IMG/VR virus record: IMGVR_UViG_3300049629_001734
Span: 18,488-82,487 of that record
Strand: one strand, 5' to 3'
Source of the DNA: a virus
Length of the DNA: 64,000 nucleotides
Position numbers and translations under genes: made by a program. The notes below the pieces were generated by a model. The model was not told the DNA's origin, did not search any database, and saw nothing but the letters and a program-made list of their open reading frames with translations. The stretch's first letter is position 1, and each line of letters starts with the position of its first letter. Positions 13,589 to 64,000 of this stretch are shown in pieces.

Positions 13589-13667
13589 AACAAAAATTGA
13601 AAACTTTTAACAAATTATACAATAAAAAAAATTAAAACCTGTGTATCTTCATAATAAAGATCTTTAC

Positions 13668-14006
13668 ATGGAGATAATTGTCTCCAAAGCAACTGGAAAA
13701 CTCACCAATAAATCTAAACTTATGCTAGAAATTCTAGCAAAAAGAACGATTAAAAAAATGAGATATAGAAGTAACGATGATAAACTTGACTGCTATCAGT
13801 CGGGAATTCTGGATATGTTCTCTAACTGGTATAATTTCAATGAAGAAAAATCAGATAATGCCTTTGCTTACTTTACCGAAATATTTAAAAGAGGTATTGC
13901 TCGTGGTTACAACGATTTATACAAGAAAAAAGGAGATAATGATCATCAAATAAGACTTATTTCTATAGAATCATCAAACGATGGACAAGGATTACATTCT
14001 ATTTAA
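13668..14006 (+). CDS. Late transcription sigma factor, T4 gp55-like
   Basis: 112 residues from the ATG at 13668; an in-frame GTG 27 nt upstream is less likely. The pattern matches sigma-70 region 2 as seen in T4 gp55: DDKLDCYQSGILDMFSNWYN, then NFNEEKSDNAFAYFTEIFK and GIARGYNDLYKKKG (core-polymerase binding and -10 recognition helices). gp55 is 185 aa, so this is a trimmed version with little beyond region 2. It would direct RNA polymerase to short -10-type elements, which fits the TTTATATATA 10-mer found before many genes here. Confidence 0.68.
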   Translation: MEIIVSKATGKLTNKSKLMLEILAKRTIKKMRYRSNDDKLDCYQSGILDMFSNWYNFNEEKSDNAFAYFTEIFKRGIARGYNDLYKKKGDNDHQIRLISIESSNDGQGLHSI

Positions 14007-17721: not shown

Positions 17722-18303
17722 TTACCAGAACCCCGGATATGACTTACCCCAAAGAGAGGAGAATCTGTTAGCACGACATGCCCAGTAACCAGGTGTCATT
17801 TTATCCTTTTTTTCACGACAATTATGTCTTTTCGAAAATCTAGCTCTTGCTTTCGGATCACTAACTTTAGCATTTAGACCACCTTTTACATCACCAAAAT
17901 GAACTACTTTCACATTTCCAGTCTTGGGGTTTTTAACATAAACTTTATACTTTTTAGGTCCTGAACTTCTCATAGGTTTTCCAAGACTTACTTTTTTTCC
18001 TTTATATTCAGCTTCTGTAATAAACTCATCACAAAGTATCGGAAAATCAAGTGGCACCATTTCCCCTTCGAACTTTGCCCAAAGACCTAGATCACTCTCT
18101 TCAAAAAGAACTCGATCAGCATCACTCAATAATTCTTGATGATTTCTTGATTCTCTTATCAACTCGAAAAATGAAGTAGATCCAGGTCTAAATATATTTT
18201 CCAAAACTGATATCTTATTTTCTAAGTGATAAACTAGATTATTACTTGGCTTCTTATCGATGAAGTCCTCGAATTTTAATATATTCTCGTAAATATTTTC
18301 CAT
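17722..18303 (-). CDS. Large-phage protein with RARHNC-like C-terminal domain
   Basis: 193 residues. The N-terminal half is helical and acidic. The C-terminal half is a compact domain with KKYKVYVKNPKTGNVKVVHF, DPKARARFSKRHNC and PGYWACRANR. This conserved Lys-rich/His-Cys domain is common in large myoviruses near head or structural genes, but I do not know its function; the paired Cys/His residues could bind zinc. Divergently transcribed from the giant baseplate-like gene. Confidence 0.6.
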   Translation of the reverse strand: MENIYENILKFEDFIDKKPSNNLVYHLENKISVLENIFRPGSTSFFELIRESRNHQELLSDADRVLFEESDLGLWAKFEGEMVPLDFPILCDEFITEAEYKGKKVSLGKPMRSSGPKKYKVYVKNPKTGNVKVVHFGDVKGGLNAKVSDPKARARFSKRHNCREKKDKMTPGYWACRANRFSSLWGKSYPGFW

Positions 18304-29540: not shown

Positions 29541-31079
29541 ATGATAATCACTAAACTTGAAAATTTTATTGGCGAATCTATTCTACAAGCTTCCAGTGAG
29601 TTGAAATCTTTACTTACTAATCTTGACGATCGGATATCGAAGGTATTACTGAGCCTAATTGGTAAAGATGTAAAAACAAATTATAATTTCTTAAACTTAA
29701 GTGACGAAGCTGGTAAATTTACTTTTACAAGTGATTCTCAAGCTAGTAGAAAACTCTCTAAAGGTGTAACTGAAGAAGAAATATTCTCTACTGGCAGTAA
29801 ATCTTATGTAGGAAGAATAGTTCACTCAATACTAGAAGACAACGGTATTGAACATACTATGCAAGAAATCGAAATATTCACCAATAAATTCAAAGCAGCC
29901 GTAGAGTTGGGAAGATTTCGTGATAGAATAAAAGTAGTTAGTGGTGATGATATAGCTTTTTGGTATTCAGAAAATAACTACAATGAGAGAACAAGAAAAG
30001 GTATGGGTCAACTTGGAAAATCTTGTATGAGAAGTAGCAGAATCTCGAAATTTTTCAAGATTTATACGATGAATCCAGATACGGTTAGAATGGTCATTAT
30101 TTTAGATGATGCTGAAAAACTCTCAGCTAGAGCACTACTTTGGAACTATTCAGGTAAATTTTATCTAGATAGAATTTACTTTACAGAAGATTCAGAGCAA
30201 GAGTTGATGAAAAAATGGCTTGAAAAATATTATTTACTAAGACCGTTAGATAAACTTTCTCTTTCGGATGATGTTGTTATTAAAAATACTGAAAACCCAG
30301 ATGGAACATTTAATAAGTATCCTTATATGGATACTTTTAAATTTTACAACCCAAAAAAGAAAACTCTTCGTGTTTTAGAACCATCAGACAAAAGTGGTTG
30401 GATTCAGATTTCAGATACTGGTGGTGGATTTGAGTATTTAGATAGAATATGGTGTGAGAATGAACAGGAGTGGTATCCAGAAGACAAGTGTGTTTATTCA
30501 CAATATGATGATATTTACATACATAGAGATAACGCGGTTTATTCTAAGTATTACTCGGATTACCTATATCGACCAGATGCTGTTTTTTCCGAAACGCAAA
30601 ATAGTTGGCTTAAAGAAGGAAACTCTATTACCTTTTACACAGATTTCAATCAAAATGGAAAGGACGTCGTTGATAGAGATGAAATTATGGGTATTTGTTT
30701 TCCTAAACTAATAGAAGTTAAAAAAACTTACAAGGTTGTGTGGTTTAGTGATAAACTTTTCGATTCTGGTGAAAATAGTAGAACGCTAGTTGAGGATTAC
30801 TACGATCTCCTAGTAAAATATTTTCCTCCAGAAGATGTCGAAATAAAATCAGAAGGTGAAAATAGGTATACCTTAAGTTCTCGTGAATATCCAAACTTTC
30901 TGGTGGTCGAAAAAAGGATATTGCTTGCTAATTTTTCATATCCAACATTACAGAAATTTTTTTGGGAAAAATTCAAATTAGTTGTTGATTATCATCTTGA
31001 AAAATATTGGTTTGAACAGGGCCTTAAAAGATACTGGAAAGAGATAAAGGCTAAAAAAAATATTCAAGTAGAGTGGTAA
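29541..31079 (+). CDS. SCMR-motif protein with capsid-targeting-like N-terminus (copy 1)
   Basis: 512 residues, clear paralogue of 32813-34321. The N-terminus MIITKLENFIGE-S resembles the T4 internal-protein targeting peptide (MKTYQEFIAE), including I-x-E before the presumed cleavage point. The core has FWYSENNYNERT, GMGQLGKSCMRSS, a strand MVIILDD, and ARALLWN...DRIYFT (about 135-225). The C-terminal half has a repeating pattern of aromatic, acidic modules (CVYSQYDD, NAVYSKYYSD, DAVFSETQNS) as in proteins often labelled PcfJ-like in phages. Biochemical role unknown. First of three adjacent genes with similar N-termini. Confidence 0.7.
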   Translation: MIITKLENFIGESILQASSELKSLLTNLDDRISKVLLSLIGKDVKTNYNFLNLSDEAGKFTFTSDSQASRKLSKGVTEEEIFSTGSKSYVGRIVHSILEDNGIEHTMQEIEIFTNKFKAAVELGRFRDRIKVVSGDDIAFWYSENNYNERTRKGMGQLGKSCMRSSRISKFFKIYTMNPDTVRMVIILDDAEKLSARALLWNYSGKFYLDRIYFTEDSEQELMKKWLEKYYLLRPLDKLSLSDDVVIKNTENPDGTFNKYPYMDTFKFYNPKKKTLRVLEPSDKSGWIQISDTGGGFEYLDRIWCENEQEWYPEDKCVYSQYDDIYIHRDNAVYSKYYSDYLYRPDAVFSETQNSWLKEGNSITFYTDFNQNGKDVVDRDEIMGICFPKLIEVKKTYKVVWFSDKLFDSGENSRTLVEDYYDLLVKYFPPEDVEIKSEGENRYTLSSREYPNFLVVEKRILLANFSYPTLQKFFWEKFKLVVDYHLEKYWFEQGLKRYWKEIKAKKNIQVEW

Positions 31080-32800
31080 TCAAAGATTTCAGGCAGTTTC
31101 TTATCAGGGAAAACTTAGATGCTGCTAGAAAGTTTTTAGATAAAACTATTTATAAAGAGGATGAACCTGCACAAAAATTGTTTCGTAAAACTTTTGACAG
31201 GATTATCAAAAGATTAGGATCGAAAGTTGGATGGTCATTACTTTTTACCCGATTTTATTTTCAAGAAGGTATCGAATTGTCTAGACTTTTTAGAGATGAG
31301 AATACACCTGAAATCGGAGCTCTTTACGATAGACTTTCAGGTATAAATCCGGGCGATCTACCTCGTCAATTGGATGAATATCCAAAGCTTGAAAATGGAT
31401 TCGAAATACTTTCTGATGATATTAGAGATTTAGAAGAGAGGGCGAGTGTGAAAGATTTCATACAAAACTTACCAGGTCAATTTGTTGTAACAAATAAATA
31501 TTCATCTAAACTTGGTCAAACTATACCTTCTATGAAAGAGGAGTTTAGAAGAATGTCGCCAGAAAAAAAAAGAGAAGTTATTCAACTTGCGATAGCTATT
31601 CGTCAATCAGGAGAGGCTAAATACAAAGCTTTCATACAAAAAGTTAAAAGATATGGATCCCTATCAGAACTTATAACAGCAGGTAAAAAATATTTACTTG
31701 CTCTAAATCTTGAACAGGAAGAAAACTATCTAGAAAAGATAAGTTCACTTCCTGAGAAATTTGTAGAAGTTCTTTTCGATAGATTTTCTATCTATATTGT
31801 AAAAGTAGATAGTTTTTTTGTAAATCAAAGATTACACGGTATGACTTCACATTGTATAGCAAAAGATATTGGACACTGGAATACCTATTATCTACCTGAA
31901 AATACACAATACTATATTACAAACTTTAATCTTGATTCGTCAGATCCTCTATCAGTTATAGGAGCGACGGTTTATCCCAATGGGAAATTCAAGACTATTC
32001 ACTCTAAATTCGATAAAAAGATGAGTACAGACGAACTTATTTCGTATCTTGATGGATTAGAAAAAGAATTTAGAATTGATATCGATTTACTAAAATTTCT
32101 AAAACCGATAACATATCCAGAAATATTAGTTCGAGAAAAAAGAAAAGAGGCAAATATAAAAATTAAAAAAACAGGACTTTCTTTAGTAGAGATCCAAAAA
32201 TTACTAGAGGATGGAGCAGATCCAAATGGAACTTTTGGAGAACCTCTCAAAAATGCCATAAACGAAAATAACATAGAAAAAGTTGAATATCTTTTACAAA
32301 ACGGAGCGGATCCCAATATCTTAGAAAGAGAACTATCTTTCGGAAATGTTTTTAGTATAAAATCAAAAGAGATTTTTTTCTTACTTATTCGTTATGGATT
32401 AAAGAACACATCTACTAAAACTTTATTTAGAATATACGATGATTTTTCTAAAGAGGGTCTACAATATTTAGTTAGAGAACTAGGTATAGAATCTATAAAT
32501 CGGTTTGATGCTCATTTATTGAGAAAGTCGGTTGTTCGTAAAGAAGTAGATTCTGTTAGGTGGCTGCTCCAAAAAGGAGCTAATCCTACCGTTAGAGGTG
32601 GCGAGCCTATACATCTAGCTATTGATGAATATAAAAAAATCGAGAAGATTTCACCTGAACAAGCTAAAAAAGTTCTAGATATTATTGGTTTATTATACAA
32701 TAGTCTTGAGACGAGTGAAATAGGTAGAAAAATTATTCAGGGTGTTAGTAAAAGTCCAGATAGATTGGAGATATTGAATAAATCTAGAAAAAAATATTAA
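31073..32800 (+). CDS. Capsid-targeting-like protein with ankyrin repeats
   Basis: 575 residues. GTG start at 31073 overlaps the end of the previous gene, giving MVIKDFRQFLIRE-N, again an aromatic-x-x-F-(I/L)-x-E-type N-terminus. A central domain has GMTSHCIAKDIGHWNTYYL and IGATVYPNGKFKTI, which resembles a Cys-containing domain common in large phages. Residues about 365-545 contain ankyrin-type repeats (LLEDGADPNGTFGEPLKNAI, YLLQNGADPN, WLLQKGANPT). Ankyrin repeats mediate protein-protein contacts and are unusual in phage proteins. An injected host-interaction factor is a reasonable but unproven idea. Confidence 0.68.
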   Translation: MVIKDFRQFLIRENLDAARKFLDKTIYKEDEPAQKLFRKTFDRIIKRLGSKVGWSLLFTRFYFQEGIELSRLFRDENTPEIGALYDRLSGINPGDLPRQLDEYPKLENGFEILSDDIRDLEERASVKDFIQNLPGQFVVTNKYSSKLGQTIPSMKEEFRRMSPEKKREVIQLAIAIRQSGEAKYKAFIQKVKRYGSLSELITAGKKYLLALNLEQEENYLEKISSLPEKFVEVLFDRFSIYIVKVDSFFVNQRLHGMTSHCIAKDIGHWNTYYLPENTQYYITNFNLDSSDPLSVIGATVYPNGKFKTIHSKFDKKMSTDELISYLDGLEKEFRIDIDLLKFLKPITYPEILVREKRKEANIKIKKTGLSLVEIQKLLEDGADPNGTFGEPLKNAINENNIEKVEYLLQNGADPNILERELSFGNVFSIKSKEIFFLLIRYGLKNTSTKTLFRIYDDFSKEGLQYLVRELGIESINRFDAHLLRKSVVRKEVDSVRWLLQKGANPTVRGGEPIHLAIDEYKKIEKISPEQAKKVLDIIGLLYNSLETSEIGRKIIQGVSKSPDRLEILNKSRKKY

Positions 32801-32812
32801 TAAATAGATATT

Positions 32813-34321
32813 ATGAAGATAAAAGGTTGGCAAGATTTCATACTAGAAAGTGTTCTACATAGTTCTGATAAGTTTTTAGATTATCTTAGAAGGATTGACA
32901 ATAAGATAGCTAGAGAATTGATAAATCTTCTAGGAAAGGATATTAAAACAAAGTATAACTTCTTGAATGTTGCAGATAGTGAGGGTGATATTTTTTTCTG
33001 GCCAGATTCTAAAGTTCAGAAAGATAGTTCAACACTTTCAACTAGACCCTCTAAAGGATCACTTGGAAGAGTTATAGGCGGAATACTTAGAGATAATCAG
33101 ATTGAGTTTACCTCTAAAGAACTCGAAGATTTTGTAAGAAGATTCGGAGCTCTATGGCTAGCCGAAAACGTTGACCCCAATAGATATCAAATAGTTGAAG
33201 GTGATGATATTCGTAAATGGTATTTAGAATCTAACTACTCAGAAGAAACCAAATCAGGGGTGGGGACTTTGGGAAAATCTTGTATGAGATACAAACATTG
33301 TAGTAAGTTTTTGGATATTTATGTTCTCAATCCAAAGGTAGTAAAGATGTTGATTCTTTTAGACCAGAAGGGTGAGCTAAGAATGAGAATGCTCGTTTGG
33401 GATTTAGATGATGAGTATTACTGCGATAGATGTTACTATACAAGAGAATCAGAACAAGGTGCAGCTATTCAATGGCTTGAAAAAAACCTAGACAAACCTC
33501 TTATAACCGATTTGGATTCAGAATATGAATACTACATAAAATTAGAAAAATCTACTCTATCTGGCGGTGAATTTACACATTACCCCTATATGGATAGTTT
33601 CAAGTATTATAATCCAAAAGAAATGGAGCTATCGACTGAAGAACCTGAAACTGAAAGAAAAGATTGGTATTTAATCAATCAAACGGATGGTGGCTGTGAA
33701 CGACTAGGTATCGTCTATTGTGTTTATGAAGACGGAGAGTATCCCGAAGAGGATTGTGTTTGGAGTGAACCAACCGGCACTTGGCTCTTACGAACCAATG
33801 CCGTAGAATCCACTTACCACCAGGGATGGTTACACAAACCAGCTAGCGTGTGGTCTGAAAAACTCGGAAGTTGGATAGTGAAAGCTGTCTCAAAAGAAGC
33901 TTGGATTGATCTAAAAAAGACTAAAAAAAGTTGGTTACCTACTAATTTAACTTCTAGTTTTATAAGTGGTGGTCGTCTAGAGTATTGGGATTCAGACCTA
34001 AAAAAGCAAGATGAAAAACCAGAAAAGGTTATATTGGACTGGTTACTCGAAAAATATCCAGTAAGTGAGCTAAAAATAAGTAAGCGGGAAAAAGATCAAC
34101 TTATGGATTCTCAAATTTACTACAAAAACTTTCCCGTTCTTGAGTTCATTTCTAAGATTGGTATAGTTGGTGGTACTGTTTTTTCAGATGAAATTACGAG
34201 AGAAATTATCCAAACTTTTTTCTCTGGTGAAGAAGATAGTTCTAATTATGAGATGGGTCAAATAATGCACAGTGCTAGATTTAATTATACAAAGATGATC
34301 CAAAAACACTTTGAAAAATAA
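32813..34321 (+). CDS. SCMR-motif protein with capsid-targeting-like N-terminus (copy 2)
   Basis: 502 residues, paralogue of 29541-31079 along most of its length: KYNFLNVAD, KWYLESNYSEETKSGVGTLG, KSCMRYKHCSKF, RMLVWDL and YPYMDSFKYYNP match, as do the acidic aromatic modules (CVWSEPTG, NAVESTYHQG, SVWSEKLGSW). The N-terminus MKIKGWQDFILE-S is the closest in the window to the T4 targeting peptide (F-I-x-E). The C-terminal ~120 residues diverge from copy 1. It ends 10 bp from the convergent carbamoyltransferase. Confidence 0.7.
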   Translation: MKIKGWQDFILESVLHSSDKFLDYLRRIDNKIARELINLLGKDIKTKYNFLNVADSEGDIFFWPDSKVQKDSSTLSTRPSKGSLGRVIGGILRDNQIEFTSKELEDFVRRFGALWLAENVDPNRYQIVEGDDIRKWYLESNYSEETKSGVGTLGKSCMRYKHCSKFLDIYVLNPKVVKMLILLDQKGELRMRMLVWDLDDEYYCDRCYYTRESEQGAAIQWLEKNLDKPLITDLDSEYEYYIKLEKSTLSGGEFTHYPYMDSFKYYNPKEMELSTEEPETERKDWYLINQTDGGCERLGIVYCVYEDGEYPEEDCVWSEPTGTWLLRTNAVESTYHQGWLHKPASVWSEKLGSWIVKAVSKEAWIDLKKTKKSWLPTNLTSSFISGGRLEYWDSDLKKQDEKPEKVILDWLLEKYPVSELKISKREKDQLMDSQIYYKNFPVLEFISKIGIVGGTVFSDEITREIIQTFFSGEEDSSNYEMGQIMHSARFNYTKMIQKHFEK

Positions 34322-34331
34322 AACTAAGCTG

Positions 34332-35936
34332 TTATACAGATTTACTTACAAGTAATTTTTCTTTAACAAAATATAAATAATCTATTTGTGTGTTTAAGAA
34401 ACAATCTATGGCGTGCTTTGGTGTTTCTACAATTGGTTCTTGGTTATTGAAAGAAGTGTTTAAAATCATCGGAACTCCTGTTTTTTCAAAAAACATCCTT
34501 ATAAGATCATAGTAATATCCATTATCTTGTGAAGTTACTGTTTGAAGACGCGCAGTATTGTCGTTATGTAAAATAGCAGGTACAAATTGTCTTTTTTCTT
34601 CTCTCACAGGAACTGCAAAGCTCATGTAGGGACTGTCTATATCAAATTCAAACCAATTTGGCACCTCTTCTCTCAATACCGAGGGAGCGAATGGTCGGTA
34701 ACTTTTCCTGTGTTTAACTTTTAAATTGATAAGATCTTTCATATATGCAAATCTTGGATCTGCTATAATACTTCGATTACCAAGAGCTCTTTTTCCTGAT
34801 TCACTGCCTTCGTTGAATAGAGAAATTATTTTTGAACCTGTCAATAAATCTACTATCTTATCAACATCTATATTCTGAGTAATAGTTAGATTTTCATAGT
34901 TTGTAAGAGTATCTAAGACTTGTGATGAAGTATAAGTTTTTCCCAAATAAGAGGTATGATGCTCTTGAACTCTTGGATTATCTAAAATATGATACCAAGT
35001 ATATTTAGCAGCTCCTATTGATAGTCCACTATCATTTGGTGCCTGATCACAAAATACGTTATATCCCTTTTCGATTAATATTTTAGATATTTTACCAAGT
35101 GCTACACAATTTAGAGAAACACCACCAGAAAAACAAATATTTTTAATTTGTTTGGTGTCCGGCGTAGTGTCTAGATGGGAAAATACAAAATGTATCATCA
35201 ACTCTTCTGTTGTGTATTGTAGAGCGGCTGCTATATGAAATCTATTCTCGTCTGATTTTTGGATCTCTTCTCTAAAAAAAGTTATGAGTTCGGTATATTT
35301 CATATTGGAAGATTCTTGCCAAGCCCAAAGATTTTCAAATCTTAGTTCATTTATTTTAGATAAATATTTTGAATGATCACCAAATGATGCCATAGCCATT
35401 AATGTTCCTGATTCATCCCCTTTGGGCGAACAGGCAAATCCCATATCTAATACAGATTGTAGAAAGAATGTCCATATAGATCCTATATTGAAAGTATGTC
35501 CACGATATACTGGATATATTTTATTTTCATTTCCAAGAAAAACACAATTTGTGGCGAGATACCAATCGTTTTCAAAGCCGCCACCATCAAATGTGAATAT
35601 TATAGATTTTTCGAAGTTAGAGTTATAAAAAACAGATGATGCGTGACAAGTATGATGTCCTACATAATCAATTTTTTTTCCTGTCTCGGTGAATATTTCT
35701 TCACCTATATCTGTGTGCCAACCCCATACACTAACAAACTGATCAAAATCTTCTATCTTGAAATCCTTAAAGATCAAATTCTTGATTGTATCTGAAAAGG
35801 GTGGTTTATTGTTAAAAAGGCCATCGTGTTTTATCCTAGTAAATCTTTCTAGTTCATTATGTAGAACTATTTTACCATTTTCTATTACACAATAAGATGC
35901 GTCATGTGGGGTAGAGGCATAAGATAATATTCTCAT
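34332..35936 (-). CDS. Carbamoyltransferase (NodU/TobZ family)
   Basis: 534 residues, close to the usual size. These enzymes make carbamoyl-adenylate from carbamoyl phosphate and ATP and transfer the carbamoyl group to a hydroxyl. The N-terminal ASKHA-like part shows PHDASYCVIENG, the metal-binding GHHTCHASS (H94/H95/H98), FTFDGGG (116-120) and CFSGGVSLNC; the C-terminal YrdC-like part shows ALGNRSIIADPR and RPFAPSVL, then LNTSFNNQEPIVETP. In phages such enzymes have been linked to carbamoylation of hydroxymethylated DNA bases; a cell-surface or small-molecule target is also possible. Divergent from the polymerase operon. Confidence 0.92.
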   Translation of the reverse strand: MRILSYASTPHDASYCVIENGKIVLHNELERFTRIKHDGLFNNKPPFSDTIKNLIFKDFKIEDFDQFVSVWGWHTDIGEEIFTETGKKIDYVGHHTCHASSVFYNSNFEKSIIFTFDGGGFENDWYLATNCVFLGNENKIYPVYRGHTFNIGSIWTFFLQSVLDMGFACSPKGDESGTLMAMASFGDHSKYLSKINELRFENLWAWQESSNMKYTELITFFREEIQKSDENRFHIAAALQYTTEELMIHFVFSHLDTTPDTKQIKNICFSGGVSLNCVALGKISKILIEKGYNVFCDQAPNDSGLSIGAAKYTWYHILDNPRVQEHHTSYLGKTYTSSQVLDTLTNYENLTITQNIDVDKIVDLLTGSKIISLFNEGSESGKRALGNRSIIADPRFAYMKDLINLKVKHRKSYRPFAPSVLREEVPNWFEFDIDSPYMSFAVPVREEKRQFVPAILHNDNTARLQTVTSQDNGYYYDLIRMFFEKTGVPMILNTSFNNQEPIVETPKHAIDCFLNTQIDYLYFVKEKLLVSKSV

Positions 35937-38104: not shown

Positions 38105-39757
38105 ATGTCACTATACAAAGATGTAAATAGATTCAAACCAAGGCAAGAGCAAGTAGATTGCCTTGAGCATATGAAAGTTGTTTTAGATGAAAATCCAAAA
38201 ACAAAGTTTTTTCTACTGAACCTTCCGGTCGGAACTGGTAAATCACATCTAGCGATGATGTTTTCAGATTACTATACCAGAAAGATAAATAAAACTGCGA
38301 AAATCGATATCGTAACAGCTTCGAAAATCCTACAAGATCAATACGAGGATGAGTATGTAAGTATTTGTAATCTCAAAGGTAAAGAAAACTATAACTGTCA
38401 GCAGTATAGCTGCTCGTGTATGCAGGGTAAAGAGTTTGGAAAACTTAATAAATCTCCCTGTGATATGTGCCCCTATGACGAAGCTAGAAACGGTTGGATT
38501 GGTGGTAAAATTTCTCTTACTAACTTCTACCTCTATCTTATTTATACAATTTATAATGAAAAACTACTCGATCTGAGAAGTCCAAATGTTTTAATCGTAG
38601 ATGAAGCTCATGAACTTGATTCGGTGATATCTGATTTTATTTCTATTAAAATTACAGAAAACACAATCAAAAAGTTGAAGTTTCCAGATGAAAGAGGTAT
38701 TATCAATAAACTCAAACGTGTTACGAATATCGCCACCTACATTAACTTTCTAAAAGAGTTTGTTATTGATATTTCAGAGAATATAGCTGAGCTTCAAAAA
38801 ACGATGGGTGAATCACCAAGAAGTGCGAAAGCCGACAGACGTGAAAATAGAATAGGAAAAATCACTGGTAGTAAAAACCCTGATATGAAGCTCATGAATA
38901 TCTTGAATGATCTGACAAGCTATATCACCAAGATTGAACTTTTTCTAAAAGAATGGGAAGCCACACCAGACAATTGGGTATTAGAAACTAACTGGAACGA
39001 AAAGACACGTCAAAAAGAACTCTCACTTGAACCTATCTGGTCACAAGAATACTTGAATAAATATCTTTGGTCTAAGTATGATCTAGTTATTTTAATGTCT
39101 GGAACTATTATTGATAAGGAACTTTTTTGTGATATCAATGGTATCAATCCAAAAGAGGCTATTTATTACTCTATACCTTCCCCTTTTGATGCTCAGAATA
39201 GAAAGATTTTCTATTTACCGATGGGGAAAATGTCTTGGGAGAAAAAAGAAGAAACTTTCAAGAACTATGTCGAGGTCTTACCGAAAATCTTGAAAAAATA
39301 TTCCGGTAAAAAAGGTATTATCCATACGAACTCGTTTGAGCTTTCTGGTTGGATAAAAGAGGCGGTATCGGATGATAGACTACTTTTTCATGATAGTGAT
39401 AATAAAAATGAAATTTTACAACATCACTACCAAACCGACAAGCCTTCGGTGATTGTTTCACCATCGATGTCCACAGGTGTTTCTTTTGATCATGATAGAG
39501 CTAGATTTCAGGTGATTGCTAAGATTCCCTACCCAAGTCTTGGTTCTCAGAAAAATAAAATGAGAAAGCAGCAAAATCCAAACTATTACGCCTGGAAAAC
39601 TTGCTGTGGTATTATACAAATGTGTGGAAGAGCTGTTCGTTCACATACAGACTTCGCTGATACGATTATTATTGATTCGTCTTTTGGTGATGTTTTGAGG
39701 TATTCATCTAAGTATTTACCTCAATGGTTTTTGAGTTCAGTTCAGAGTAAAGGTTAG
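38105..39757 (+). CDS. XPD/DinG-like SF2 DNA helicase with iron-sulphur cysteines
   Basis: 550 residues. Walker A PVGTGKS (41-47), DEAH box VDEAHE (165-170), and Cys-rich insertion between them (C88, C98, C103, C105, C119, C122), where XPD/DinG helicases hold a 4Fe-4S cluster. C-terminal helicase motifs: LMSGTIID, STGVSFDHD and QMCGRAVRS (motif VI with Arg finger). These enzymes unwind DNA 5' to 3' and also act on R-loops and G-quadruplexes. It follows the polymerase part by 10 nt and is likely co-expressed with it. Its stop overlaps the convergent 39754 gene. Confidence 0.85.
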   Translation: MSLYKDVNRFKPRQEQVDCLEHMKVVLDENPKTKFFLLNLPVGTGKSHLAMMFSDYYTRKINKTAKIDIVTASKILQDQYEDEYVSICNLKGKENYNCQQYSCSCMQGKEFGKLNKSPCDMCPYDEARNGWIGGKISLTNFYLYLIYTIYNEKLLDLRSPNVLIVDEAHELDSVISDFISIKITENTIKKLKFPDERGIINKLKRVTNIATYINFLKEFVIDISENIAELQKTMGESPRSAKADRRENRIGKITGSKNPDMKLMNILNDLTSYITKIELFLKEWEATPDNWVLETNWNEKTRQKELSLEPIWSQEYLNKYLWSKYDLVILMSGTIIDKELFCDINGINPKEAIYYSIPSPFDAQNRKIFYLPMGKMSWEKKEETFKNYVEVLPKILKKYSGKKGIIHTNSFELSGWIKEAVSDDRLLFHDSDNKNEILQHHYQTDKPSVIVSPSMSTGVSFDHDRARFQVIAKIPYPSLGSQKNKMRKQQNPNYYAWKTCCGIIQMCGRAVRSHTDFADTIIIDSSFGDVLRYSSKYLPQWFLSSVQSKG

Positions 39758-40059
39758 TCTTGTGGCTTAGAGGCAAGAAGTTGTCTTCTTCTGGCAGCTC
39801 CTGCTTTTTGTCTAATCATCTTCATTATTTCTTCACGAGACTTTCTTTTGGGAGTTCTAGTCATAGAATTTCTCTCGGATCTTGATTCACCAAGTGGTGA
39901 GATACCCTCTGGCATATCATCATCACCTTCGATAGTATCTTCTCCTTCGAGATCAAACTCAGTAATCTTTTCTTTACCCTTTAACATAGGTGAGTCTTGC
40001 TCTATATTTTGAATTTCCTGCTCTGGTTCGTAATTTTCGAAAGTCTTTAAAAATTTCAT
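39754..40059 (-). CDS. Small acidic/basic protein, possible prohead core component
   Basis: 101 residues: N-terminus MKFLKTFENYEPEQEIQ, an acidic middle (EFDLEGEDTIEGDDDMPEG) and a basic C-terminus (KRKSREEIMKMIRQKAGAAR). The 'M-K-x-x-x-x-F-E' start resembles the tagged proteins at 29541-34321 and 52382-52549. Low complexity and split charge fit T4 prohead core proteins such as gp67/gp68, but there is no direct homology I can show. Preceded by a late-type promoter (18 nt from the ATG). Confidence 0.6.
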   Translation of the reverse strand: MKFLKTFENYEPEQEIQNIEQDSPMLKGKEKITEFDLEGEDTIEGDDDMPEGISPLGESRSERNSMTRTPKRKSREEIMKMIRQKAGAARRRQLLASKPQD

Positions 40060-44573: not shown

Positions 44574-45218
44574 ATGATAAGAACTTTTCATCAATTTATT
44601 CGACAAACATGTTGGAAATCAGATGACAAATATGCTATAATAGGAACAATTCATCCACATAGAGTAGATGATTTTGATCTGAACTTTTTTTATGGAAATA
44701 AGGGTTTTCTCTGGAGCATACTCGGACAAGCTTTTCCAAATCTAGATTTTACAACCGTAGAATCTATAAAAAGAATACTATCGAGAAATCGTATTTGGAT
44801 TACAGATATGATTGAAGAATGTAGTAGGCCACATGAGAGAGAAACCAGAGATAGTCATCTATATGATTTGAAATTGAATACTAAACTTATAGAAGAAGGT
44901 CTTCGGGGATCACAAATTGATACTATATTTCTAACTTCAAGATTTGAAAGGAATAACGCTGCTGAATTGTTTATAAGAGCTTTTGGTTTAGATCTTTTAT
45001 CATGGAACGAAGAATTATCACAGTTCATTATACCTTCTTCTAAATTTGGTAGAGAAATCAGAGCAGTAGTTCTCTTCTCACCGTCTGGTCGTGCGAATCT
45101 TGGTATTTCTAGATCAAAATCATATCTAGCCAGTAAAGATAGATACGGTCAAGAAAAGAATCCAGTGGCTTTATTCAAGATTGATTTTTATAGAGATAAA
45201 TTCGCATTCTTAGTATAA
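44574..45218 (+). CDS. Uracil-DNA-glycosylase superfamily protein
   Basis: 214 residues. Motif order fits MUG/hypoxanthine-type glycosylases: IGTIHPHRVDDFDLNFFYGN (24-42) as the active-site loop region, FLW shortly after, RNRIWITDMIEECSRP (71-86), IDTIFLTS (115-122) and LFSPSGRAN (167-175) as the DNA-intercalation loop (S-P-S-x-x-x-N). These enzymes remove deaminated or altered bases. It is third in line after the type IIG and GHKL genes and near a carbamoyltransferase, so action on a modified base is possible. The N-terminus MIRTFHQFIRQ also recalls the tagged proteins. Confidence 0.62.
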   Translation: MIRTFHQFIRQTCWKSDDKYAIIGTIHPHRVDDFDLNFFYGNKGFLWSILGQAFPNLDFTTVESIKRILSRNRIWITDMIEECSRPHERETRDSHLYDLKLNTKLIEEGLRGSQIDTIFLTSRFERNNAAELFIRAFGLDLLSWNEELSQFIIPSSKFGREIRAVVLFSPSGRANLGISRSKSYLASKDRYGQEKNPVALFKIDFYRDKFAFLV

Positions 45219-50910: not shown

Positions 50911-50927
50911 CAATCGTCTTACTTTTT
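50887..50927 (+). terminator. Hairpin over the nrdA stop codon, probable terminator
   Basis: Perfect 12-bp inverted repeat GATTGTCAAGCG / CGCTTGACAATC with a 5-nt loop (50887-50915), then GTCTTACTTTTT. The stem covers the last codons of nrdA and its stop. The T-run is slightly displaced, so termination efficiency is uncertain. Convergent gene ends at 50919. Confidence 0.6.
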
Positions 50928-52385
50928 AAATTTAGAGATTAACTCTACTTTTTCGTTGATTCTTTCAAGCTCTTGAAGATAAACTTTCGATTCTTTAAGA
51001 TATTTCGAAAGTTCTTTAACCCTATCGAAGTCGGCCTTATCAAGTGCCTGATCTATCTCATCATTAAGACGAGATTGTGACCAGGTAGATGGGTCGGCTT
51101 CTTTTTGTGCTGTTTTTTGCTTGAGATCAGCTATATCATCCTGTTCTTCTCCATCCGAACTAGTAGTTGCTAGATCACCATCATCTGGATAATCACGAGT
51201 AATCCAATCTATAATACCATCTATCTGGTTTTTAGCACTTGATGCTTTATATTTAGCATCATTAAGAACAAATCTACCATTCTGGAGATCGAAACAAGAG
51301 AATATTTCTTTAACAATATCTAAAAATAATTTATCCGAATATTCTCCGCCATTATTTGGGTGTCTTGAAAGTTCGATCAATACGAACTCGACCATGTTTT
51401 CACCATCATCAATTCTTTTTGAGCTATTTTTAATACAACGTTTTGTAAATTCAATAAACATCATACGAGCAACTGGCCCATAACGAAAATCTTCAGTTTC
51501 ATCTTTGAAGGATGAGGTATACTTTTTAATATCTTGTTCTTTTTCAACATCTCCGGTGTTAGATACTGCTCTTGGACCAAGACGAATAAGTGCTTTTGAA
51601 GCTTCGTGTAGTAGCATTGTAAAATCAAGAGCTCTTACGATAATCCATATTTGTTTTGGATCTCTATTCCAATCAACGTCATTTGAACCGGCCATACCAG
51701 CTGGTTGATTCTTCATCATTCTTGCTTTATCATCACCCGGCCAAGCCCAGTCTAATTTATTTCCTAAGCGCATCGTATCGCTTGTTATTCTTTTAAATTC
51801 AGTAGCTTTATATCCGAATATTTCTTCAAGATCTTGATCGATAGTAGGATAACTATTCATTATTTCTTCTACCTCAAATCCAGCACCTTGACCGAGCATA
51901 TCAATTATTTTTTGTTTTGACACGCTATATTTGATATCTTTAGGTGTGTCAGATGATAGAGTTTTTTGCGGAAATGCCGGTTTTTCTCTCAATCTTGGAG
52001 ATTCATCAATAACATCTTTACCTTCTGGTAAGATTTGCATATCAAAGATGATTCGTCTTTTCGTGGTCGCCTCAGCTACTTCGATAAGATCTTTATATTT
52101 GTGTTGAATAATCTTTTCTGCTAACTCAGAAAGACTATTTAATCTCTCTATTTTTTCAACTTGAGTTAATTTTTTACCCCTATCGTCTTTTGACATAATA
52201 TCTTTAGCACGATCAAGTAACCCCATGAGCTCTGGTCCAAACTGACGCATTTGACTTGGATCATCGGGTGTTGTTCCTAGAGTTTCTCTAGCGTATCTTT
52301 TCGATTTTGGAATAAAATCATCTGGTAATCCTTCGATATCTTTAACATCGACTTCTTCTTTGATAAACTTTAGAAAATTCTTCAT
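50919..52385 (-). CDS. Hypothetical protein with capsid-targeting-like N-terminus
   Basis: 488 residues starting MKNFLKFIKE-E, a basic-aromatic start followed by F-I-x-E as in T4 internal proteins. The rest is helical and charged, with ARETLGTTPDDPSQMRQFGP near the start, a conserved-looking core (RLGNKLDWAWPGDDKARMM and ALDFTMLLHEASKALIRLGP, about 205-270) and a Ser/Asp/Gln-rich linker near 410-440. No enzymatic motif is recognised. It is coupled by a 4-bp overlap to the small gene 52382-52549, which starts in a similar way. Confidence 0.65.
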   Translation of the reverse strand: MKNFLKFIKEEVDVKDIEGLPDDFIPKSKRYARETLGTTPDDPSQMRQFGPELMGLLDRAKDIMSKDDRGKKLTQVEKIERLNSLSELAEKIIQHKYKDLIEVAEATTKRRIIFDMQILPEGKDVIDESPRLREKPAFPQKTLSSDTPKDIKYSVSKQKIIDMLGQGAGFEVEEIMNSYPTIDQDLEEIFGYKATEFKRITSDTMRLGNKLDWAWPGDDKARMMKNQPAGMAGSNDVDWNRDPKQIWIIVRALDFTMLLHEASKALIRLGPRAVSNTGDVEKEQDIKKYTSSFKDETEDFRYGPVARMMFIEFTKRCIKNSSKRIDDGENMVEFVLIELSRHPNNGGEYSDKLFLDIVKEIFSCFDLQNGRFVLNDAKYKASSAKNQIDGIIDWITRDYPDDGDLATTSSDGEEQDDIADLKQKTAQKEADPSTWSQSRLNDEIDQALDKADFDRVKELSKYLKESKVYLQELERINEKVELISKFKK

Positions 52386-52549
52386 CTTTTTTCAAAATAT
52401 TGATTTATCTCTCCCTTCCCTTCGTTGGAGAGTGTTTTATAGATCTCTTGTAATCTCTCTACCATCATATCTGCACCACTTTTTGTCACAGGTTTTTGTT
52501 GTGTTGTGGCAGGATCCGAGAAACTTTCGAACTTACGAATGTGCTTCAT
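52382..52549 (-). CDS. Small 55-residue protein with MKHIRKFESF start
   Basis: ATG at 52549, TGA at 52382-52384 overlapping the ATG of the next gene (ATGA). The protein starts MKHIRKFESFSDP, has a Thr/Gln stretch and a helix (MMVERLQEIYKTLSNEGKG) and ends in EKR. Support comes from the exact coupling with the downstream gene, the late-type promoter 17 nt upstream, and the N-terminus similar to the tagged proteins (especially MKFLKTFENYE at 40059). Function unknown; packaged small internal protein is one possibility. Confidence 0.65.
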   Translation of the reverse strand: MKHIRKFESFSDPATTQQKPVTKSGADMMVERLQEIYKTLSNEGKGEINQYFEKR

Positions 52550-52566: not shown

Positions 52567-52576
52567 TATATATAAA
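52567..52576 (-). promoter_or_regulatory. Late-type promoter 10-mer (minus strand)
   Basis: Exact TTTATATATA on the minus strand, 17 nt before the ATG at 52549; drives the coupled pair 52549 to 50919. Confidence 0.55.
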
Positions 52577-62874: not shown

Positions 62875-64000
62875 TTAATTCACTATCCAGGTTCCAACAG
62901 CTGAAGTTACTATCCAGTCACCGTTTGTATTCACTGAAATAAGAGCTGCTGCGTCTCTAGCGAAAGCCGCGGTCGATTGAATGTAACCACTTGTTACAGT
63001 TTCACTATCACCGAAATATATTTTCTTTCCCGATGGTGCTTGAACTCTATACCAACAATCACTTTGTGGTCCGAATCCAACAAACCTACATTCAGTTCCA
63101 ATACTTGTTACGGCAGGTAGAGTTATTGTAATAAAACACGATTCGGCTATATTACCGTAATTTTCTTGAGAAGTTCCGTCGTTAGGCCAACTTGTCCAGA
63201 GTAAGTAATTATAACCTGAACTACCAGAAGTACCGGAGGAATTAGAAACACCTGAAGTTCCAGCAGATCCTGAAGTTCCAGAAGTTCCAGAAGATCCTCT
63301 GGAACCTGAGCTGCCTGAGGTTCCGGATGATCCCCTAGATCCAGAGGAACCAGAAGTTCCGGATGATCCCCTAGATCCAGAGGAACCAGAAGTTCCAGAT
63401 GAACCAGATGATCCTGAATTACCGGAAGTTCCTGATGAACCTCTAGAACCTGATGATCCTGAAGTTCCTGATGATCCAGAGGATCCAGATGAACCTGAAG
63501 TTCCTGATGAGCCCCTAGAACCCGATGATCCTGAAGTTCCTGATGATCCTGATGAACCTGTAGTTCCCGAAGAACCAGAAGATCCTGATGAACCAGAAGT
63601 CCCAGAATTACCATCTACGCCAGCAGTTCCAGAAGATCCTGATGATCCCGATGAACCTGAAGTTCCCGAAGAACCAGAAGATCCCGATGAACCAGAAGTT
63701 CCCGAGGAACCTCTAGATCCCGACGAACCAGAAGTTCCTGATGAACCTGATGAACCTGAATTACCAGAAGTTCCAGAAGAACCAGAAGATCCAGACGAAC
63801 CAGAAGTTCCTGATGAACCGGACGAACCTGAATTACCAGAAGTTCCTGATGAACCTGAAGATCCCGATGAACCGGAAGTTCCTGATGAACCTGAGGATCC
63901 AGATGAACCAGAAGTTCCAGAAGAACCTGATGAACCAGAGGTTCCGGAAGATCCCGATGAACCTGAATTACCAGAAGTTCCTGAAGAACCAGAAGATCCA
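62875..64000 (-). CDS. Collagen-like fibre protein, C-terminal part (runs off right edge)
   Basis: The stop is at 62875-62877 and the frame stays open to the right edge. From about 63225 to 64000 every third residue is Gly, in units such as GTSGSSGSSGTS and GSRGSS, a collagen-like triple-helix repeat. The last ~115 residues form a globular C-terminal domain (YNYLLWTSWPNDGTSQENYG, ECRFVGFGPQSDCWYRVQAP, GDWIVTSAVGTWIVN). Phage fibres often have such Gly-x-y shafts with a terminal knob. The start and N-terminus are outside the window. Downstream of it lies the Nudix operon promoter in the same direction. Confidence 0.88.
   Translation of the reverse strand, partial: GSSGSSGTSGNSGSSGSSGTSGSSGSSGTSGSSGSSGSSGTSGSSGSSGSSGTSGNSGSSGSSGTSGSSGSSGSSGTSGNSGSSGSSGTSGSSGSRGSSGTSGSSGSSGSSGTSGSSGSSGSSGTAGVDGNSGTSGSSGSSGSSGTTGSSGSSGTSGSSGSRGSSGTSGSSGSSGSSGTSGSSGSRGSSGTSGNSGSSGSSGTSGSSGSRGSSGTSGSSGSRGSSGTSGSSGSRGSSGTSGTSGSAGTSGVSNSSGTSGSSGYNYLLWTSWPNDGTSQENYGNIAESCFITITLPAVTSIGTECRFVGFGPQSDCWYRVQAPSGKKIYFGDSETVTSGYIQSTAAFARDAAALISVNTNGDWIVTSAVGTWIVN
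63225..64000. repeat. Gly-x-y coding repeat of collagen-like shaft
   Basis: Dense 9-bp based repeats (reverse complement of units such as GATGAACCAGAAGTTCC) encode Gly-Ser/Thr-Ser triplets and continue to the right edge. A 45-bp near-exact duplication is visible around 63320-63400. Confidence 0.85.

Follow-up and report, generated by a model that had tools for sequence, protein, structure and literature searches.

The internal proteins IPI, IPII and IPIII of phage T4 carry a capsid-targeting signal (CTS; Mullaney and Black, 1996, as cited in PMC5694885 and PMC9024508), which sends proteins to the core of the prohead and is later cleaved off by the protease of the prohead (PMC5694885; PMC9024508; PMC3012670). 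In the T4 record, IPII and IPIII start with MKTYQEFIAE|A. Related strategies are described for other phages. Head proteins of SPN3US and phiKZ have N-terminal targeting propeptides that the prohead protease removes after x-x-E, but these are mostly longer than 100 residues and have no common short motif (PMC5694885), whereas the tag described here occupies residues 2-12. An N-terminal signal of P1 DarB suffices for the packaging of a foreign protein in the head; however, the Dar proteins show no common consensus and P1 apparently has no separate scaffold system (PMC9024508). For huge phages, no description of a comparable tag was found in the open-licence literature.

The DNA analysed here (the window) comprises 64,000 nucleotides, bases 18488-82487 of an AT-rich (33% GC) viral contig of 82,487 bases. 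The original prediction had drawn attention to a coupled pair of ORFs whose N-termini resemble capsid tags, and proposed that such starts, recurring on unrelated proteins, are a general cargo signal. Our preferred reading, to which we assign a probability of about three in four, is that the tag acts like the T4 CTS: it would dock proteins on the prohead core and be cleaved by the protease, leaving the cargo to be delivered with the DNA.

The tagged pair and its relatives

Both ORFs are present with the predicted N-termini, and both lie on the minus strand, which had been left unstated. The locus contains the following features:

50919-52385, minus strand: P0001, 488 aa, start MKNFLKFIKEEV / MKNFLKFIKEE, the downstream gene of an operon of two genes with a candidate late promoter
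52382-52549, minus strand: P0002, a small tagged protein of 55 aa, MKHIRKFESF, first gene of the operon
52353-52385, minus strand: residues 1-11 of P0001 (MKNFLKFIKEE), the N-terminal tag, which may direct capsid loading and be cleaved; several of its residues are invariant in alignments A1 and A3
50952-50966, minus strand: C-terminal ERINE of P0001 (residues 474-478), conserved protease-like I-x-E site
52567-52574, minus strand: late-promoter-like TATATATA, located 18-25 nt ahead of P0002
52630-53346, divergent to P0002 and adjoining the tagged pair: phage ClpP (Pfam CLP_protease, E 4e-57)

P0002 leads P0001, with an overlap of 4 nt between the ORFs. Of 1173 internal windows taken from this contig, none reaches the tag score of P0002 (15.9) and one reaches that of P0001 (13.0). 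Neither protein belongs to a Pfam or PHROG family, the bodies of both lack IPI-III homology in the same searches, and family searches of P0001 to P0004 came back empty. As a lone IMG/VR query P0001 found no match, while the orthologue alignment A1 used as query retrieved four more orthologues, from four IMG/VR contigs. Together with those of LR745206 and LR756502, the P0001 orthologues are just 28-36% identical. Nevertheless, M1, K2, N3, F4, F7, E10 and E11 (MKNFxxFxxEE) are all invariant in A1 and A3. At the C-terminus, RINE is invariant in A1 and present in four of the five sequences of A3, the fifth having ITE. The gene ahead of P0001 resembles P0002 in LR745206, LR756502 and two IMG/VR contigs, the syntenic homologues starting with MRFLKKFEKFNEE, MKFIKKFEKFLES, MRFIKNFEKFLES and MGHIKKFEDF, and a third tagged gene lies 3' of P0001 in every relative examined. 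The predicted structure of P0001 (mean pLDDT 76) has a mostly confident body, while residues 1-16 fall below pLDDT 50, with a helix at residues 4-11. The model resembles no solved fold in the PDB and has one viral structural match, the uncharacterised A0A6J5Q1V8.

This conservation and synteny across diverged huge phages, together with protease-like sites at both ends of P0001, would also be expected if the tagged proteins were structural components of the prohead core or scaffold, similar to gp67/gp68, with P0001 and P0002 as core components that are degraded or retained in the head. For the pair itself such a role is compatible with CTS-like targeting. As an account of the tag it is possible but unlikely, since it leaves unexplained the more than 100 mostly unrelated tagged proteins of LR745206, some of them enzymatic. 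The neighbouring gene raises the alternative that the tag is recognised by machinery other than the head, such as the phage ClpP, for which it could serve as degron or adaptor peptide; LR745206 encodes two ClpP homologues. There, however, the ClpP genes are located elsewhere (pieces L005 and L006), while the P0002-P0001 pair is surrounded by other tagged genes, and a proteolytic fate predicts neither a T4-CTS-like pattern nor the link to late-promoter-like motifs described below, which renders a ClpP signal improbable.

The contig belongs to a T4-like huge phage. Its 18 kb outside the window (L003) encode a partial T4-type MCP, a 709-aa protease-scaffold fusion and a tail sheath, the last assigned by its start sequence. 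The window contains a terminase, a DNA polymerase and a DnaB-type helicase, as well as NrdA-, UvsW- and clamp-loader-like proteins that were recognised by eye only. A carbamoyltransferase-like start (MRILSYASTPHDASYCVIENG) at 34332-35936 (minus strand) raises the possibility of DNA or surface modification, and the contig ends in repetitive low-complexity coding sequence (63147-64000). Among named records, LR745206 (634,780 bp) and LR756502 (642,428 bp) come closest, with a DNA polymerase 66% identical and protease-scaffold proteins 66-74% identical to those of the contig, which places all three in the same lineage. These two records, like LR756501 and LR756504, presumably stem from the work of Al-Shayeb et al. 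(2020; PMC7162821), who assign the five genomes of more than 634 kb to the Mahaphage clade and to Bacteroidetes hosts; a term search of that article returned no N-terminal capsid tag.

A short N-terminal tag on many unrelated proteins

LR745206 was taken in whole, with 945 ORFs called. The tag, located at residues 2-12, has the approximate consensus M-K-x-[LIF]-x-x-[FY]-x-x-[FY]-[ILNE]-x-E and comes in several flavours; typical starts are MKHLKKFNES, MKYLKTYKIFES and MIKKYNQFINES, and a further flavour is MKYLKxFExF. The pattern [FYW]xx[FY][ILVM]xE begins at residues 2-10 of 26 LR745206 proteins, where 2.1 are expected from internal positions, and [LIFYVM]xxFNE does so in 26 proteins against 0.8 expected, both with a sharp peak at residues 4-6. 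As these patterns had been picked after inspection of the data, a randomly chosen half of the ORFs served to train profiles. In the other half, these profiles find 78 of 472 N-termini tagged (5.6 expected, p 4e-46). The bodies of the tagged proteins fall into 139 clusters with no detectable similarity between clusters. In the contig itself, 4 of 75 ORFs score at least 9 (0.26 expected, p 8e-4), and the LR745206-trained profile is also enriched in LR756502, LR756501 and LR756504, while among 80 IMG/VR relatives 35 of 879 N-termini are tagged against 1.2 expected. Thus, a general N-terminal signal common to many unrelated proteins is statistically established in the clade. By score alone the DNA polymerase (start MNKQEKLERIEELKIK) also appeared tagged, and was discarded as a false positive.

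The AT-rich genome and the lysine-rich tagged N-termini could suggest that the tag is a by-product of Lys/Phe-rich, AT-biased starts or of a codon preference at initiation, with no function at the protein level. This is hardly credible. Composition-preserving shuffles of residues 2-22 yield 10.1 +/- 2.7 tagged ORFs in LR745206, not the 153 of 945 observed, so the motif is far commoner there than composition predicts; chance alone should account for about 10 of the 153. Codon usage within the tags equals the genome background, indicating that selection acts on the peptide, and the tag is kept in the P0001 orthologues despite their low overall identity. Where a family has homologues, these bear the tag in 46% of cases if the protein itself is tagged and in 5% if it is untagged. 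Furthermore, phage G, crAss001 and T4 pieces show no enrichment of the profile, and none is clear in 50-kb pieces of the Bacteroidota phages Tenacibaculum pT24 (1/48) and Chryseobacterium MA9V-2 (1/62). A codon-level or compositional artefact was rejected on the shuffles and the codon usage.

Beyond the pair, the contig has these tagged or tag-like starts:

39754-40059, minus strand: tagged protein MKFLKTFENYE, 101 aa, score 11.8 (2/1173 internal windows), late motif upstream
44574-45218, plus strand: MIRTFHQFIRQ protein, 214 aa, weak tag, score 9.2 (7/1173 internal windows), no late motif
17722-18303, minus strand: MENIYENILKFEDFI protein with tag-like start, 193 aa, score 12.7 (1/1173), late motif, PHROG 7595 (unknown function)
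L003 11309-11734, plus strand: tagged start
L003 17807-18361: weak tagged start
29541-31079, plus strand: MIITKLENFIGES protein, 512 aa, low tag score of 3.0, late motif, paralogue of 32813-34321
31073-32800, plus strand: VVIKDFRQFLIRE ankyrin-containing protein, 575 aa, weak tagged start
32813-34321, plus strand: MKIKGWQDFILES protein, 502 aa, weak tag, score 6.6

The first two had been proposed alongside the pair: the ORF at 39754-40059 is clearly tagged, while the one at 44574-45218 exists but is marginal. The starts at 17722-18303, 31073-32800 and 32813-34321 and the two in L003 had not been listed. The ankyrin-containing protein is homologous to the product of the gene that follows P0002 and P0001 as third cassette member in the relatives (MKLFKYNQFLGE, E 2e-41). 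Its neighbours at 29541-31079 and 32813-34321 belong to a family with no known domain that has at least eight copies in LR745206 (e.g. MIKKYLDFIKES and MLTKYESFLLER), several of them tagged.

Late-promoter-like motifs and tagged enzymes

An [AT]ATATATA motif, mostly located 10-40 nt before start codons, is the candidate late promoter (TTAATATATA). It stands ahead of the MCP, protease, sheath and terminase genes and was not found before those of the DNA polymerase, the UvsW-like helicase, the DnaB-type helicase, NrdA and the clamp loader; it is on the genes bearing it (MCP, protease, sheath) that we infer a late promoter. The expected reader is encoded in the window:

13641-14006, plus strand: gp55-like late sigma factor (PHROG 234, E 1e-7)

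In LR745206, where the motif is far more frequent than in shuffled upstream sequence, it precedes 49 of 55 tagged but 83 of 243 untagged genes (p 3e-14), and in the relatives 36 of 37 tagged versus 390 of 669 untagged genes; in the small sample of the contig itself the association is not significant (3/6 versus 31/60). Conversely, the element TAnnTTTG, which we take to be of the Bacteroidota -7 type and which is a candidate early element, is rarer before tagged genes (4/43 versus 53/222, p 0.04). The T4 late promoter TATAAATA was tried as well and is not associated with the tags, the clade using a different motif. At the pair, the motif at 52567-52574 is palindromic and hence also lies upstream of the divergent ClpP gene.

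Family searches leave most of the tagged proteins without a match. Confirmed exceptions in LR745206 include a T4 Rnl1-like RNA ligase (L013 20485, MKLFKYIEFINEN), a 2H phosphoesterase with an RNase T exonuclease (L012 48257, MKLKKYKQFIKES; its Acb1 match is sub-threshold) and an M15 peptidase, one of a few tagged proteins that would not be expected as head cargo. tRNA repair and cyclic-nucleotide cleavage would be sensible roles for proteins delivered with the DNA. So many tagged proteins with such diverse domains might instead be sorted to an intracellular phage compartment or replication site. Yet the DNA polymerase, DnaB-type helicase and clamp loader of the contig are untagged and lack the late motif, and the tagged genes appear to be of late type, so that a sorting signal of this kind would come as a surprise.

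Cleavage-like sites, scaffold repeats and the T4 model

The head genes in L003 offer a possible counterpart to the tag:

L003 954-3083 (G000:954-3083), minus strand: prohead protease with a fused scaffold domain, in which a 14-residue unit (NISYSEYLAENLDR) is repeated in tandem about 11 times

This protein matches annotated prohead core scaffold and protease proteins (E 1e-12 to 5e-16) and is conserved in more than 50 IMG/VR contigs and in LR745206, LR756502, LR756501 and LR756504. Its scaffold domain contains 9-14 octamers of the YSEYIAEN type, with the core Y-S-E-Y-[IL]-A-E-N, which resemble both the phage tags and the T4 sequence YQEFIAE. The structural model has low confidence (pLDDT 49) and suggests that the repeats form a single long helix (residues 274-448). 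MCP homologues start with KWxPxLE and carry a near-invariant HSINE|N where the propeptide is expected, and the C-terminal RINE of P0001 resembles this site. The tags, too, terminate in x-E, like HSINE|N and the T4 sites. Taken together, the sequences suggest one rule, with a single protease recognising [ILF]-x-E at the ends of the tags, of the scaffold units and of the MCP propeptide. The connection between repeats and tags is suggestive only: a profile of the scaffold repeats, applied as an independent tag detector, gave weak or no N-terminal enrichment, which is why docking by imitation of the scaffold stays conjectural. LR745206 additionally encodes, distant from the protease gene, a stand-alone 83-aa protein of scaffold repeats (L013 10435-10686, minus strand), possibly a scaffold accessory or competitor. 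A truncated second MCP-like ORF of this genome shares the HSINEN propeptide region (L009 41407-41880) and may encode a vertex protein or be a broken copy.

Compared with T4, two features of a T4-type CTS are found here: a short N-terminal aromatic-x-x-F-[IL]-x-E on unrelated proteins, spanning about 10 residues and reading aromatic-x-x-F-I-x-E in T4, and a T4-type MCP with a gp21-like prohead protease in the same phage. The likeness in how the two signals would work is strong. It is a likeness at the pattern level, as none of the 60 N-termini of the T4 piece with ipI-ipIII reaches the threshold of the huge-phage profile. The systems differ in the consensus (here MKYLKxFExF, MKHLKKFNES and MIKKYNQFINES), in the scaffold, which here is fused to the protease and made of tag-like repeats, and in scale, T4 having a handful of tagged proteins against about 140 of the 945 ORFs in LR745206. 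For this scale no precedent was found, and the scaffold design may be new too. The proposal that the tags mark capsid cargo gains support, since most indirect tests favour it, namely the likeness to the T4 CTS, the MCP and protease-scaffold, the late-promoter link, the peptide-level selection and the conservation of the tag.

The CTS-like route would run as follows. Late in infection, many otherwise unrelated proteins would be made with the tag, which would attach them to the core of the assembling prohead, perhaps through its resemblance to the scaffold's 14-residue YSEYIAEN repeats. As the head matures, the protease would cleave the tag, the scaffold repeats and the HSINE|N site of the MCP, each time behind the Glu of [ILF]-x-E, and the trimmed cargo would stay in the head until it is delivered with the DNA. 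P0002 and P0001 may thereby represent one two-gene cargo or core operon.

We tentatively extend this to the idea that Mahaphages carry a pre-packed proteome of more than 100 mostly lineage-specific proteins with a cleavable, scaffold-mimicking tag, in which any gene that gains the tag becomes cargo; we hold this broader view with less than even confidence. In the largest phages most genes have no assigned function. The tag would provide one function class for about a sixth of such a genome, as probable virion-carried proteins, and would point to the proteins that are first to enter the host, among them the RNA ligase and the 2H phosphoesterase as candidates for counter-defence. It may also offer a modular loading signal, and it raises for T4-like capsid targeting the idea that cargo tags resemble the scaffold repeat.
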